A stretch of DNA of 64,000 nucleotides from Roseimaritima sediminicola. Lineage in GTDB: Bacteria > Planctomycetota > Planctomycetia > Pirellulales > Pirellulaceae. The stretch spans positions 1 to 64,000 of the forward strand of contig NZ_WIAD01000006.1 in NCBI RefSeq assembly GCF_009618275.1. Direction: 5' to 3'. Shown in pieces: positions 52,755 to 59,149 of the stretch. A model generated the notes under the pieces. The model was not told the origin of the DNA, did not search any database, and was given only the letters and a program-made list of their open reading frames with translations. A program made the position numbers and the translations under genes. Positions within the stretch are counted from its first letter, which is position 1; each line of letters begins with the position of its first letter.

Positions 52755-53065
52755 CGAAAAACTCTTTTGAAGCTCGGTAAGGAGGATGCTAGCAGGGCTC
52801 GCAAAAGCCCGCTTCGTCAACGAATAAACCGCATCGTGGCACGCTCTCTGGCAGCTGTCCAGGGTTCACCCCGGCGGGGACACTTTTGCTAGCACCCTCT
52901 GGACTTTCCCGGTCGGCGGCTTTTTCGACTTGACCAAATCTTGGGAACGGTGACAATCGTTCTCGCTCGCCACCCAGGCCAGCGGATTCAGGACGAATCC
53001 ACGCTGTGCAACGCGAGTCTTTTTCCCAGGATAGCCCTACCACATCTGCGGCAAGGAGGCCGGAC
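52755..53065. other. Divergent intergenic region
   Basis: This 311-base stretch lies between the PTS IIA-like operon and the Mur-ligase-like gene. A good ribosome site (AAGGAGG) for the rightward gene sits at 53052-53058, and a candidate promoter lies at 52930-52957. GCGGGGACACTTTTGCTAGC near 52873 is AT/GC mixed and may hold the leftward promoter. Confidence 0.4.
52930..52957 (+). promoter_or_regulatory. Candidate sigma-70 promoter of the Mur-ligase-like gene
   Basis: TTGACC (52930-52935) and GACAAT (52952-52957) are separated by 16 bases. They match TTGACA/TATAAT at five and four positions. The start codon is 109 bases downstream, leaving a moderate leader. Confidence 0.35.
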
Positions 53066-54562
53066 ATGGTTGGAATCGATGCAAGCGAGCTGCGTCCCGC
53101 AAGTCTTCGAGAATTGTTTCCTGAAGCCCGATTCATCGGTGCCCAGGACATCCAAGTCTCTCGCTTGGCGGTTGATTCCGCCGCTTGTCGGCGTGGTGAT
53201 TTAATCGTCGTCGACTGTGCCACGGCGGACCCCCAGCAAGCGATCGCCGAAGCTTTGGCTCGTGGCGCGGCGGGCATCCTGTGCGAGCAACTATTGCCCT
53301 GTCCCCTGCCCCAGTGCGTGGTGCCGGACGCCCTGGCCGCGACGGCTTTGGTGGCCGATGCGTTGGCCGGACGCCCGACCCGCGACGTCTACACCGTGGG
53401 CGTGATCGGACCAGCCGGAAAGACGACGACCGCGTTGTTGGTCGCCGCGGCCTTGCGAGCCGCTGGAATCCGCACCGCTTACAACACGGACCTGGGGACC
53501 TGCGATGGCGTCCTGCAAGTGACGCCCGGCCATGCGGTCAACGATCCTATCGGACAATCGCAGTGGTTGGCTGATACCCGCGACTGCGGCTGCGAAACGG
53601 CCGTTCTGGAATTGAACGAGCGGATGCTGGCCAACCACTGCCTGGAACCGCTGCAGTTGGATCTGTTGGTCATCACCGGTAACCCCGGACGCACCGGCGA
53701 ATTCGGACCGCATCAGTTGCAAACGGCCTTGGATCATTTGAACCCCGAGGGCATGGTCGTGGTTTCGGCCGACAGTCCGCAAGCGGTGCGGATGGTGACC
53801 GATGCCGGGGTGCGGCGATTGACTTACGGACTGCGCAAGCAGGCCGACATCAGCGCCAAGGTGTTCGAGCAGGTGGCCGGTCAGACGACCCTGCTGATCA
53901 CCGCCGGCGATACCACGGCCGCGATGGAAACCCAGTTGACCGGTCCGGCCATGGCCTCCAACCAATTGGCCGCCGTCGCCGTGGGGATGCTGGCCGAGCT
54001 GGACCTGCCACGAGCGATCGAAGCGGTCGTATCGGTCAAGCAGATTCCGGGGCGCATGGATCGTATTACCGGTTACGACACCGCCGCGGTGGTACTGGAT
54101 TCAGCCGATACCCCAGGGCGATTGAGCGAAACGTTGCGGACGTTGCGGCGGGAACGCCAGGGCGGACGACTGTGGTGCGTCGTCGCCGCCGACGAGCGAG
54201 CCGAGGACGTGCAGCATGCGAACCTCGGCGCGGCGGCCGAACGCTTTGCCGATCGAGCCATCTACACCAGCGGAGCCGGCGGTAAGGAAGCCTTCTTGGC
54301 CACCTCGCACGCGATGTTGGACGGAGTCCGTCGGCCGGCCGAACCGCGTCTGATCGCCGACCGCCAACGCGCGATCGAGTGGGCCGTGGCCCACGCGGCC
54401 CCCGAAGACACGATCTTGATCGCCGGCGGTTATGCCAGCGACAGTCCGCACGCGCACCGCAGCACGATCGAAGCCGATCGCCGGCTGGTCGAAGAGGCTC
54501 AGGAGCGGCCCGCCACCCCGCGAGCGGTCATGCCCGCGACGATCCCCTTCCCGGTAGCGTAG
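53066..54562 (+). CDS. Mur-ligase-like protein with altered catalytic motifs (MurE paralogue)
   Basis: AAGGAGG with correct spacing fixes the ATG at 53066, giving 498 residues. The three MurE-like domains are visible. The N-terminal part contains VSRLAVDSAACRRGDLIVVD. The ATPase has VGVIGPAGKTTTALLVAAAL (Lys119), but the usual TGTNGKT is changed to IGPAGKT. The C-terminal domain has PGRMDRITGYDTAAVVLDSADTPGRLSETL, where canonical MurE has VDYAHTPD. The NLxxDHLDYHG segment is replaced by GNPGRTGEFGP. ATP binding seems kept, while UDP-MurNAc-peptide ligation looks unlikely. Function is unknown. Confidence 0.8.
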   Translation: MVGIDASELRPASLRELFPEARFIGAQDIQVSRLAVDSAACRRGDLIVVDCATADPQQAIAEALARGAAGILCEQLLPCPLPQCVVPDALAATALVADALAGRPTRDVYTVGVIGPAGKTTTALLVAAALRAAGIRTAYNTDLGTCDGVLQVTPGHAVNDPIGQSQWLADTRDCGCETAVLELNERMLANHCLEPLQLDLLVITGNPGRTGEFGPHQLQTALDHLNPEGMVVVSADSPQAVRMVTDAGVRRLTYGLRKQADISAKVFEQVAGQTTLLITAGDTTAAMETQLTGPAMASNQLAAVAVGMLAELDLPRAIEAVVSVKQIPGRMDRITGYDTAAVVLDSADTPGRLSETLRTLRRERQGGRLWCVVAADERAEDVQHANLGAAAERFADRAIYTSGAGGKEAFLATSHAMLDGVRRPAEPRLIADRQRAIEWAVAHAAPEDTILIAGGYASDSPHAHRSTIEADRRLVEEAQERPATPRAVMPATIPFPVA

Positions 54563-56073: not shown

Positions 56074-57255
56074 GTGAATAGAACGAATACCTTTTCCCTG
56101 GAAACGTTGGCGAAGCTCGTCGATGCCCAGGTGCTCGGCGACGCAGCGACCCAGTGCTGTGACGCCCGCCCGCTGCAGGAGGCCGCCGCCGGCCACATCA
56201 CCCTGTTGGACGATTGCAAGCGAATCGATCAGGTGCTTCGCAGCGGCGCCTCGGCGGTGGTCGTCGACCGCGCCGTCGAACATGCCGACATCCCCCAATT
56301 GGTCGTTGCCGATATCCATGCGGCGTTTGTAACCATCATCCGTCAGTTCCGCCCCGATACCTCCCAGGACTTTCAGGGCGTCAGCGCGGCCGCTCACATC
56401 AGTCTGGATGCCGAAGTCGGCACGGGCTGCACGATCCATCCCGGCGTGCACGTCGGCTCCGGGGCCGTCATCGGCGACGGGACCACCCTGATGCCCGGCG
56501 TGGTGGTCATGCCGCACTGCCGGATCGGAAAGGATTGTCAGTTGTTCCCCGGCGTCGTGCTGTATCCCTACAGCGTGCTGGAAGACCGGGTCACGATTCA
56601 CGTCGGTTCGGTGATCGGTGCCTACGGATTTGGGTACCGCCAGCAGGACGGCCGCCATGTTCGCACGGCCCAGCTGGGATACGTTCATATCGAAAGCGAC
56701 GTCGAACTGGGCGCGGGAGTCACGATCGACCGGGGAACCTACGGGTCCACACGGATCGGCACCGGCACCAAAATCGACAACCAGGTGATGATCGCGCATA
56801 ACTGTCAAATCGGTCGCCACAATCTGATCTGTTCGCAGGTCGGCGTCGCCGGCAGTTGTTCCACCGGAGACTACGTCGTGATGGCCGGTCAGGTCGGGCT
56901 GAAAGACCATGTTCATCTGGGCGACGGAGCCATCGTCGGGGCTCAAGCCGGCGTGATGGAAGACCTGGCTGGAAATCAAGTTTATTTGGGCAGCCCGGCG
57001 ACCAGCCAACGCGATCAAATGCAGATCATGGCCGTCCAACGCCGCTTGCCCGAGATGCGTAAGAACCTGCAGCGGCTGGTTCGCCAAGTCGAAACCTTGA
57101 CCGCTCGGCTGGAAGCCGCCGAGCAGGCCGCCGCAGCCGAACAGGCCGCCGCAGCCGAACAGGCCGCCGCAGCCGAACGGGTCGGGCCAAGCGAACAGGA
57201 CGGGCCAAGCGGACGGGGTGGCCCGGACGAGGCTGCCGACGCTCAGGCCGCTTAG
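56074..57255 (+). CDS. lpxD: UDP-3-O-acylglucosamine N-acyltransferase
   Basis: The 393-residue enzyme adds the second acyl chain in lipid A synthesis. The N-terminal uridine-binding domain (1-100) precedes the left-handed beta helix of hexapeptide repeats (about 105-310: VGTGCTIHPGVHVGSGAVIG, FGYRQQDGRHVRTAQLG). The catalytic His242 is in IAHNCQIG. The GTG at 56074 has AAGGAGGG upstream. A coiled C-terminal tail with EQAAAA repeats (about 345-393) extends past the family's usual end and is encoded by tandem GCCGCAGCCGAACAG units. lpxI follows. Confidence 0.95.
   Translation: MNRTNTFSLETLAKLVDAQVLGDAATQCCDARPLQEAAAGHITLLDDCKRIDQVLRSGASAVVVDRAVEHADIPQLVVADIHAAFVTIIRQFRPDTSQDFQGVSAAAHISLDAEVGTGCTIHPGVHVGSGAVIGDGTTLMPGVVVMPHCRIGKDCQLFPGVVLYPYSVLEDRVTIHVGSVIGAYGFGYRQQDGRHVRTAQLGYVHIESDVELGAGVTIDRGTYGSTRIGTGTKIDNQVMIAHNCQIGRHNLICSQVGVAGSCSTGDYVVMAGQVGLKDHVHLGDGAIVGAQAGVMEDLAGNQVYLGSPATSQRDQMQIMAVQRRLPEMRKNLQRLVRQVETLTARLEAAEQAAAAEQAAAAEQAAAAERVGPSEQDGPSGRGGPDEAADAQAA
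57119..57178 (+). repeat. Tandem repeats in the 3' end of lpxD
   Basis: GAACAGGCCGCCGCAGCC units repeat three times and encode EQAAAA; short GGGCCAAGCG units follow. They build an acidic-alanine helix at the LpxD C-terminus. Confidence 0.9.
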
Positions 57256-57277
57256 GAACACGAGGGGATTGCAAAGC

Positions 57278-58174
57278 ATGAGCGGTACCACGACGGTTAC
57301 GGCGGCCGGTCAGACCATCGGCCTGATCGCCGGCTGGGGGCGGTTTCCCGTGCTGGTCGCCGAAGCGGCACAGCGGCGAGGCCTGCGGGTCGCCTGTGTG
57401 GCGATTCGCGACCACGCCGATCCACAGCTGCATCGTGTTTGCGACCATGTCCGCTGGATGGGCGTGGCCAAGTTTGGCGGACACATGCGGTTCTTCCGCC
57501 AGCACGGCGTCCACGAAGTCACGATGGCGGGCAAGATCTTCAAATCGCAGGTCTTGTTTTCCGGCGCGGTGTTGTGGCGACACCTGCCCGATTACACCTG
57601 CCTGCGTTCGCTGGCACCGTTGCTGTTCTCGCGGCACCGCGACACCCGCGACGATAGTCTGCTGGGCCGAATCACCAATACCTACCTAGACCGCGGCATG
57701 CACGTCTGCCCGGCCACCGACATCGCTCCGGAGTTGCTCGTGAAAGAAGGAATGCTGACCCGCCGGCACGTCAAACCCGCCCAGCAGCGCGACATCGAGT
57801 TCGGTTGGGAGATCGCCAAGCAGATGGGCGGGATGGACATCGGACAAAGCATCACGGTCAAGGACGGAACGGTTCTGGCCGTCGAGGCGGTCGAAGGAAC
57901 GGACGCCTGCATCGAGCGCACCGGGCAACTGTGTCGCAAAGGCGGCTGGACGCTGGTCAAGGTTGCCAAGCCGAATCAGGATATGCGGTTCGACGTGCCG
58001 ACGATCGGTCCCCAGACCATCGAAACGGTGCGTCTTGCCGGCGGTACGGCGATCGCCATCGAAGCGGGAATGACGATCGTGGTGGATCAGGACCAGATGG
58101 TGCGGGCGGCCGATGCGGCGGGCATCGCCGTGGTCGCGATGCGCCGCGGTGCCTCGCAGACCGTCGCCGCCTAG
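57278..58174 (+). CDS. lpxI: UDP-2,3-diacylglucosamine diphosphatase LpxI
   Basis: The 298-residue enzyme hydrolyses UDP-2,3-diacylglucosamine to lipid X in lipid A synthesis. GLIAGWGRFPVLVAEAAQRR begins the N-terminal domain, HMRFFRQHGVHEVTMAGKIF follows, and the DUF1009 C-terminal half shows QDIEFGWEIAKQMGG-like (RDIEFGWEIAKQMGGMDIGQ) and EGTDACIERTGQLCRKGGW. LpxI replaces LpxH in alphaproteobacteria and many planctomycetes. The ATG at 57278 lies 23 bases after lpxD. The Dnmt2-like gene starts at the next base after its stop codon. Confidence 0.95.
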   Translation: MSGTTTVTAAGQTIGLIAGWGRFPVLVAEAAQRRGLRVACVAIRDHADPQLHRVCDHVRWMGVAKFGGHMRFFRQHGVHEVTMAGKIFKSQVLFSGAVLWRHLPDYTCLRSLAPLLFSRHRDTRDDSLLGRITNTYLDRGMHVCPATDIAPELLVKEGMLTRRHVKPAQQRDIEFGWEIAKQMGGMDIGQSITVKDGTVLAVEAVEGTDACIERTGQLCRKGGWTLVKVAKPNQDMRFDVPTIGPQTIETVRLAGGTAIAIEAGMTIVVDQDQMVRAADAAGIAVVAMRRGASQTVAA

Positions 58175-59149
58175 GTGCGTATCCTCGAACTGTTCTCCGG
58201 GATCGGCGGCGTGGCCGAAGCGCTCGCCCGCTGGCCGGGACTGGGAACGATCCAGCAAGCGGTCGACATCGACCAGCAGTGCGCACAGGTGTACCAGCGG
58301 AACCACGGTGCGGCGCCGCGGATCGCGACGATCGATTCGCCGCACAGTTGGCAACACCGGATCGACTGGCGCGGAGCGGATTGTTGGTGGCTCTCGCCGC
58401 CCTGCCAGCCCTACTGCCGGCGCGGTCGTCAGGACGACGCCGACCCGCGCCGCGGCGGGCTGTTGCAAGTGATGGCAGCGCTGGACCGGGCGGGCCGCGA
58501 TCGGCCTTTCGCCCTGGCGATGGAGAACGTGCCCGAATTCGCCGGCAGCGCCGATCACGGACGTTTGCTGGACCTGCTGGACCGCCTGGGGTACCGCGTG
58601 CGCGAGCAGCAGTGGTGTCTTTCGGATTGGCACCATCCCAATCGTCGGCGGCGTTACTATTTGACCGCGTGGCAGCGCGACGTCTCGGCCGAACCGCCGC
58701 GGTCGCTGGTTCCACCGCCCACGCCCGCCAGCGGTGTGCGTCCGCTGGCCGACTTTCTGGACGCGGCGGTCGCCGACGCCCTGTGGTTGCCCCCGGAGCC
58801 GTCCGGTGCGCTGAAGACGGCCCTGGACGCCGGTGCGCTGGACATCGTGCGGGCCGACGACCCGGCCGCGGTCACCGCCTGCTTTACCGGCGGCTATGGC
58901 AAATCGATCAAGCAAGCCGGATCGTACCTGCGGGACGGCCGGCGTCTGCGGCGGTTTTCGCCGACCGAGATCCAGCGTCTGCTGGGCTTTCGCGAGCGGT
59001 TTTCCTGGCCGGATGATGTGCCGCTGCGACGACAGTGGAAGATGTTGGGCAACAGCCTGGCGATTCCCGTCATCGTCGACCTGCTGCGTTCGCTGACGCC
59101 CCGCCCTAGTGCTGCGTCAGCGTTAGATTTTGGGTCTGGCCGTAGCTGA
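58175..59149 (+). CDS. Dnmt2-type (tRNA) cytosine-5 methyltransferase
   Basis: The 324-residue protein has all core C5-methyltransferase motifs: LELFSGIGGVAEAL (I), SPPCQPY with catalytic Cys77 (IV), ENV 117-119 (VI), RRRRYYLTA (VIII) and LGNSLAIPVI (X). After motif VIII it carries CFTGGYGKSIKQAGSYL, with CFT at 236-238, followed by FSPTEIQRLLGF. This CFTxGYG...G.GS signature is diagnostic of Dnmt2 (TRDMT1), which methylates C38 of tRNA in eukaryotes and tRNA in Geobacter. The target region between VIII and X is short, as in Dnmt2. The GTG start directly abuts the lpxI stop. The last 12 residues are contributed by a repeat element. Confidence 0.85.
   Translation: MRILELFSGIGGVAEALARWPGLGTIQQAVDIDQQCAQVYQRNHGAAPRIATIDSPHSWQHRIDWRGADCWWLSPPCQPYCRRGRQDDADPRRGGLLQVMAALDRAGRDRPFALAMENVPEFAGSADHGRLLDLLDRLGYRVREQQWCLSDWHHPNRRRRYYLTAWQRDVSAEPPRSLVPPPTPASGVRPLADFLDAAVADALWLPPEPSGALKTALDAGALDIVRADDPAAVTACFTGGYGKSIKQAGSYLRDGRRLRRFSPTEIQRLLGFRERFSWPDDVPLRRQWKMLGNSLAIPVIVDLLRSLTPRPSAASALDFGSGRS

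Follow-up and report, generated by a model that had tools for sequence, protein, structure and literature searches.

A bacterial Dnmt2-type gene next to lpxI in Roseimaritima sediminicola, with tRNA-Glu(UUC) as its most likely target

The closest known bacterial system is the Dnmt2 of Geobacter sulfurreducens, reportedly studied by Shanmugam et al. 2014. The function of bacterial Dnmt2 is little studied; in the accessible parts of the literature found, the Geobacter protein is the one bacterial Dnmt2 named as having been assayed on tRNA. According to the accessible text of PMC5456315, the G. sulfurreducens enzyme prefers tRNA-Glu (the position is printed there as cytosine 28). The available parts of PMC4860778 likewise give tRNA-Glu as the target of Geobacter Dnmt2, and section 1.1 of PMC5372726 presents Geobacter as the one exception to tRNA-Asp as the Dnmt2 target. 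The abstract of PMC5456315 describes bacterial DNMT2 as acting as a DNA methyltransferase, and the paper also puts Haemophilus methylases under that name. For human DNMT2, the loop rule C32UNNCAC38 is quoted in the available text of PMC9976931. A full-text literature search for Dnmt2 with planctomycete or Acidobacteria made no paper on bacterial Dnmt2 apparent in the text returned, and wider searches led to Geobacter only.

The window analysed here is a stretch of 64,000 nucleotides from Roseimaritima sediminicola. Its genome is labelled G000, and G001, G002 and G003 are the other members of the genus that were searched. The genes of interest are the following.

58175..59149, + strand: predicted gene of a Dnmt2-family cytosine-C5 tRNA methyltransferase, 324 aa with GTG start (PF00145, PDB matches, tree and model)
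57218..58174, + strand: lpxI, upstream neighbour, reading frame as listed (profile match; adjacency seen within the genus only)
56074..57255, + strand: lpxD, upstream of lpxI (profile match)

The Dnmt2 reading frame comprises 324 codons without internal stop, and its GTG start follows the lpxI stop codon TAG (58172-58174) with zero gap, both frames being in the same phase. The true start of lpxI is possibly located slightly downstream of the listed one. A previous sequence-only reading had proposed a gene at this place directly behind lpxI, among lipid A genes; the frame is real, and the identities of lpxI and lpxD were confirmed by profile matches. Its guess at a planctomycete host was also correct, Roseimaritima belonging to the Pirellulaceae. 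Co-transcription of the gene with lpxD-lpxI is plausible given the zero gap. The promoter and terminator scan gave one site (0.6 in shuffles) and two sites (3.2 in shuffles), none beyond chance. The window also encodes, at 53006-54562, a Mur-ligase-like protein of 518 aa, which reached 162.9 bits against the MurE cut-off of 257.3 (TIGR01085) and may represent a divergent or repurposed Mur ligase.

The protein matched PF00145 at 7e-27 (95.1 bits, cut-off 22), and no second PF00145 gene was found in the 6.2-Mb genome. When the PDB was searched with this one sequence, the top places went to five Dnmt2 chains (9.7e-29 to 2.5e-19), with human DNMT2 1g55 at 9.7e-29 and HhaI following at 1.7e-11. With a profile built from 11 Pirellulaceae homologues, the five leading chains were again Dnmt2s (human twice, S. 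pombe, Spodoptera and Entamoeba) and scored 3.2e-72 to 2e-59, and the best DNA methyltransferase, again HhaI, 1.8e-33. HhaI, which is outside the tree set, has therefore a far lower sequence score than the Dnmt2s against the window protein. HhaI and other PF00145 DNA cytosine-C5 methyltransferases share the catalytic fold and motifs with the window protein.

In a tree of 56 rows, 34 bacterial and four eukaryotic Dnmt2 sequences were separated from 18 Pirellulales PF00145 proteins with a branch support of 100/99. This tree is unrooted and has several long branches; its 34 bacterial rows were picked by hand from 87, and its DNA enzymes come from one bacterial order, HhaI itself being absent. The 18 DNA rows were obtained from 35 loci tried, of which 11 were without frame and six were repeats. 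A quick tree of 102 rows gave the same split (91 versus 11 rows, SH-aLRT 99); it omits L035, L081, L086 and L110, whose genomes are already represented by another row, as well as 16 of the 27 DNA-enzyme loci, for which no frame was found. Rows from Geobacteraceae other than G. sulfurreducens lie, like the window protein, on the side of the branch that holds all bacterial Dnmt2 rows. The phylogeny proposed in the sequence-only reading thus gave no clustering with DNA C5-methyltransferases, for the DNA enzymes tested.

Motif numbers I, IV, VI, VIII and X are those that we take to belong to the stretches below. Cys77 in motif IV is presumably the catalytic cysteine, and C77 (PPC), E117 (ENV) and R158/R160 (R-x-R) are assumed to be the catalytic residues.

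Residues 5-12, + strand: motif I, ELFSGIGG (from the sequence)
58394..58426, + strand, residues 74-84: motif IV, SPPCQPYCRRG, with Cys77; S74, P75 and P79 are Dnmt2-type columns
58523..58540, + strand, residues 117-122: motif VI, ENVPEF (from the alignment)
58643..58660, + strand, residues 157-162: motif VIII, RRRRYY (from the alignment)
58880..58900, + strand, residues 236-242: CFTGGYG, the CFT signature adjoining motif IX, a mark of Dnmt2 according to the accessible text of PMC3227630
59048..59059, + strand, residues 292-295: motif X, GNSL; Ser294 is replaced by Ala in 17 of 18 related-genome DNA methyltransferases

All five motifs and the CFT triplet, as noticed earlier from the sequence, are present in the protein. 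C77, E117, R158 and R160 are invariant in an alignment of 77 rows, which drew on 66 of the best 80 loci of a scan of public genomes, so the catalytic motifs of the window protein are intact. In the 56-row set, bacterial and eukaryotic Dnmt2s agree at 19 alignment columns, including C236, F237, Y241 and S294, where no more than 40% of the DNA enzymes have the same residue. Most of the Dnmt2-type columns are missing from the related-genome DNA enzymes, which lie on the opposite side of the 100/99 branch. The window protein has CFT at residues 236-238; C236, F237 and T238 occur in 32, 34 and 28 of the 34 bacterial Dnmt2 rows and in all four eukaryotic ones, and F237 in none of the 18 DNA enzymes. 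Among the public-scan loci the CFT count (66 of 80) is biased, as the loci were selected partly by CF[TA]. The window protein deviates at two near-invariant positions before motif VIII, with L149 for P and H153 for G.

The AlphaFold model, built with 77 sequences, had a mean pLDDT of 94.5. With this model, the nine best chains in Foldseek were all Dnmt2 (1.5e-27 to 2.4e-23), followed by HhaI (9.9e-20). In VIA-align 2, where Z values less than 1 apart count as tied, the best entries were EhMeth (Z 34.5, rmsd 2.2, 292 aligned), Pmt1 (Z 34.2, rmsd 2.3, 296 aligned), human DNMT2 1g55 (Z 31.9, rmsd 2.3, 277 aligned) and Spodoptera Dnmt2 (Z 31.6, rmsd 2.6, 288 aligned), followed by HhaI (Z 31.0, rmsd 2.5, 291 aligned) and a second human DNMT2 structure, 9hgm (Z 30.4, rmsd 2.7, 284 aligned). 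Ranked by Z, the first four entries are all Dnmt2s (31.6-34.5), and the model of the 324-aa window protein shows the Dnmt2 fold without extra domains. EhMeth and Pmt1 stand above HhaI, whereas the two human structures and Spodoptera are tied with it. The predicted fold therefore agrees with Dnmt2 but sets it apart from HhaI weakly, so that sequence and tree carry the family case. The eukaryotic Dnmt2/TRDMT1 proteins (1g55, Pmt1 6fdf, EhMeth 3qv2 and Spodoptera 4h0n) are like the window protein in CFT, motif IV type and fold, with 28-31% identity in the structural alignments. The PDB searches, the Dnmt2-type columns and the 100/99 split uphold the assignment to the Dnmt2 type made earlier, and by its sequence the window gene is a genuine bacterial Dnmt2.

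The order lpxD-lpxI-Dnmt2 was found in G000, G001 and G002 (three of the four genomes of the genus); in G003, lpxI was not found on the 11,324-base contig that carries Dnmt2. Neither lpxI nor lpxD was found beside Dnmt2 in the best 80 of the 148 public-scan loci. Among 92 loci searched, matches to both lpxI and lpxD were present in two (L023 and L024), plus the window, with contig ends limiting some loci. The lipid A setting that the sequence-only reading had emphasised is consequently a local one, and a function in the lipid A pathway was dropped because the adjacency to lpxI, and the linkage to lpx genes in general, is confined to the genus. The stretch between lpxI and Dnmt2 in G001 contains a 135-bp tandem duplication (L023:10292-10561), with two copies 98% alike and short palindrome-like stretches seen by eye. 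Among the most frequent clusters, the neighbour families within about 4 kb of Dnmt2 are lineage-shared or common domains; a common neighbour was rejected, these clusters corresponding to lineage-level synteny, common domains or frame artefacts.

A scan of 84,980 species genomes yielded the 148 candidate Dnmt2 loci. By NCBI label, the best 80 belong to Planctomycetota (30), Thermodesulfobacteriota (15), Acidobacteriota (13), Myxococcota (9), Pseudomonadota (8), Actinomycetota (1) and Candidatus Melainabacteria (1), with three unlabelled; most are metagenome bins, and single labels may be wrong. Two bins titled Klebsiella pneumoniae (L061 and L100) carry a Dnmt2 that groups with bins labelled Myxococcota and Pseudomonadata-type proteobacteria, and their Klebsiella labels look wrong. 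In G127 the Dnmt2 is included in an open frame of 1076 residues; a fusion protein was rejected, since the extra part looks, by eye, like a frame left open by chance in GC-rich DNA that precedes an ATG. Among 60 near genomes, 12, own included, possess a strong homologue (best E at most 2.8e-26), that of G015 being split across two contig ends. Eight more have weak partial matches only (2.2e-8 to 6.7e-4), such as ordinary methyltransferases give. Dnmt2 is present in each of the four genomes searched in the genus. In an even draw from the phylum, three of 149 genomes had a match at E <= 1e-30, namely the own genome, a second with a strong match of 400.8 bits and a third with a borderline one of 128.7 bits, a figure that may be low because at most 16 candidates per genome were scored. 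The earlier statement that bacterial copies are rare thus stands for the phylum draw but not for the 148 loci and the near genomes; bacterial Dnmt2 is scattered, not very rare.

The RF00005 search of the host genome gave 46 tRNA places, all fetched, from which 45 distinct tRNA sequences were read. The sole tRNA-Asp(GTC) found (G000:C55:6829-6902, locus L124) has the loop CTGTCGA (RNA CUGUCGA) with A38, although, with the genome 98.86% complete, a second tRNA-Asp could be missing from the assembly. The main target of eukaryotic Dnmt2, C38 of tRNA-Asp, is therefore absent from this genome and cannot be the substrate here, unlike in the eukaryotic precedent that the sequence-only reading named. 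This loss of C38 is notable in itself, since according to the available text of PMC4860778 C38 serves AspRS as an identity element. One of the 45 tRNAs matches C32-U-N-N-C-A-C38, namely tRNA-Glu(UUC) with the loop CTTTCAC (RNA CUUUCAC), so m5C38 of tRNA-Glu(UUC) is predicted, and C38 of this tRNA is the most likely target. The G. sulfurreducens Dnmt2 is similar to the window protein in being a bacterial Dnmt2 and in its tRNA-Glu target, which is the one predicted for the window protein, a likeness drawn from the accessible parts of papers citing it. Other C38 tRNAs are Val(CAC) with TTCACAC, Val(UAC) with TTTACAC, and Ser(GGA); U32 is the single departure from the rule in both Val tRNAs, and Ser(GGA) departs from it at position 36. 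The genome also possesses a tgt gene (459.2 bits, cut-off 306.75). Q34 stimulates Dnmt2 on tRNA-Asp. A queuosine link was rejected, as tRNA-Glu(UUC) has U34 and the Q34 stimulation would not apply.

The match to PF00145, together with that to the NCBIfam DNA methyltransferase model TIGR00675 (74.7 bits, below the cut-off of 100.65), is a superfamily match that would also suit a solitary or restriction-linked DNA cytosine-C5 methyltransferase merely resembling Dnmt2. The best PADLOC match of the protein, 'Type II methyltransferase' (1e-22), is likewise a superfamily match, and the fold of HhaI is nearly identical to the model. However, the tree splits the protein from the 18 Pirellulales DNA methyltransferases, the Dnmt2-type columns are present, and PADLOC found no restriction nuclease among the eight neighbouring proteins, with weak matches only (SduA at 1.1e-7 for a response regulator, mad1 and PDC), which makes this explanation highly improbable. 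A restriction-modification role was rejected as well, with no partner found among the neighbours examined and the protein on the opposite side of the tree from the DNA methyltransferases sampled. That the gene is a remnant of a Dnmt2, barely active or inactive and drifting within the lpx cluster, is likewise highly improbable. The patchy occurrence (12 of 60 near genomes) and the window-specific L149 and H153 would agree with it, but the open frame and all catalytic motifs are intact and the four genomes searched in the genus all have the gene. Moreover, compared with the nearest homologue (G001) over 304 codons, codon positions 1, 2 and 3 differ at 0.234, 0.240 and 0.503, so third-position changes are about twice the first-position ones, as expected under purifying selection.

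A genuine Dnmt2 could also have another C38 tRNA as its main substrate, Val(CAC) or Val(UAC), or several together. Both Val loops agree with the rule except at position 32, and some Dnmt2s use tRNA-Val and tRNA-Gly (section 1.1 of PMC5372726). Nevertheless, both carry U32 where the rule has C32, whereas tRNA-Glu(UUC) matches fully, and the one studied bacterial Dnmt2 favours tRNA-Glu according to the accessible text of PMC5456315; we consider this alternative unlikely. As a whole, the explanation that we regard as the best, and as likely, is a true bacterial Dnmt2 with C38 of tRNA-Glu(UUC) as its target, for which we infer catalysis, substrate and role. The computations themselves show that the protein belongs to the Dnmt2 family, with its catalytic residues intact and the matching fold, that codons change as under purifying selection, that a single PF00145 gene is found, and how the tRNA loops read.

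Position 38 was also read in other genomes; the counts were made by hand from matches, and bins may contain foreign contigs. Among 32 distinct Dnmt2-bearing genomes with both loops read (the Asp loops of G000 and G015 coming from separate readings, and one duplicate genome removed), C38 was present on Glu only in 18, on Asp only in nine, on both in five and on neither in none. The group with Asp A38 and Glu C38 consists of planctomycetes throughout. The nine with Asp C38 and Glu A38 are eight labelled Acidobacteriota and G086, labelled Phycisphaera. C38 on both was found in Geobacter (G066 and G082), Lujinxingia (G100), an acidobacterium (G088) and a Pirellulaceae bin (G105). Thus, 18 of the 20 planctomycete genomes have Glu C38 and Asp A38, the other two being G105 (both) and G086 (Asp only), and eight of the nine Acidobacteriota have C38 on Asp only. 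Unlike the two Geobacter genomes, the window genome has C38 on Glu alone of the two tRNAs. The Asp pattern matched in 37 of 59 genomes, with 19 A38 (18 distinct, each bearing a Planctomycetota label or belonging to the family of the window) and 18 C38, and the Glu pattern in 46 of 61 (two genomes entered twice), with 36 C38 and 10 A38.

In the near genomes, Asp A38 was found in 50 of 56 matched and Glu C38 in 54 of 57. Glu C38 with Asp A38 is also the rule in relatives without Dnmt2, and therefore the state of the tRNAs, which mostly follows lineage, shows substrate availability and not use. Where both loops were read, C38 was on neither in two of 43 near genomes without Dnmt2 (G045 and G052) versus none of 10 with Dnmt2, numbers too small to discriminate, with G029 doubtful. 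tRNA-Glu(UUC) with A38 (CTTTCAA) was present in the Acidobacteriota-labelled G064, G065, G078, G083, G087, G090, G093, G096 and G101; in eight of these nine tRNA-Asp was read too and has C38, the reverse of the state in most Pirellulaceae, and in G064 Asp was unmatched. A tRNA-Glu-like sequence with the loop CTTTCAA and an unusual variable region was found in G023, G029, G037, G044, G051, G056 and G057, beside the normal tRNA-Glu match or, in G029, in its place.

By the chemistry that we assume for the family, the flipped cytosine would be attacked at C6 by Cys77, with help from Glu117 and the motif VIII arginines, and SAM would be the methyl donor. The methylated base would be C38 of tRNA-Glu(UUC), giving m5C38. 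By analogy with eukaryotic work, this mark probably tunes the decoding of Glu codons and shields the anticodon loop from cleavage. A dispensable role fits the patchy occurrence. More broadly, and tentatively, bacterial Dnmt2 could be a widespread mobile tRNA-marking enzyme with a host-dependent substrate, whichever of tRNA-Glu and tRNA-Asp keeps C32-U-N-N-C-A-C38, and under that proposal the mark may guard the C38 loop against anticodon-loop nucleases.

The gene is a genuine bacterial Dnmt2, and the tRNAs of its host point to tRNA-Glu. This genome is a clean test case because C38 is absent from its tRNA-Asp and the search for PF00145 proteins found none besides Dnmt2. If Dnmt2-dependent m5C38 occurs, it must therefore be carried by a tRNA other than tRNA-Asp, with tRNA-Glu(UUC) the most likely one, and m5C in the DNA of this host would have no PF00145 source besides Dnmt2. 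The opposite state of tRNA-Asp and tRNA-Glu in Acidobacteriota permits a substrate-swap comparison of how Dnmt2 picks its tRNA.
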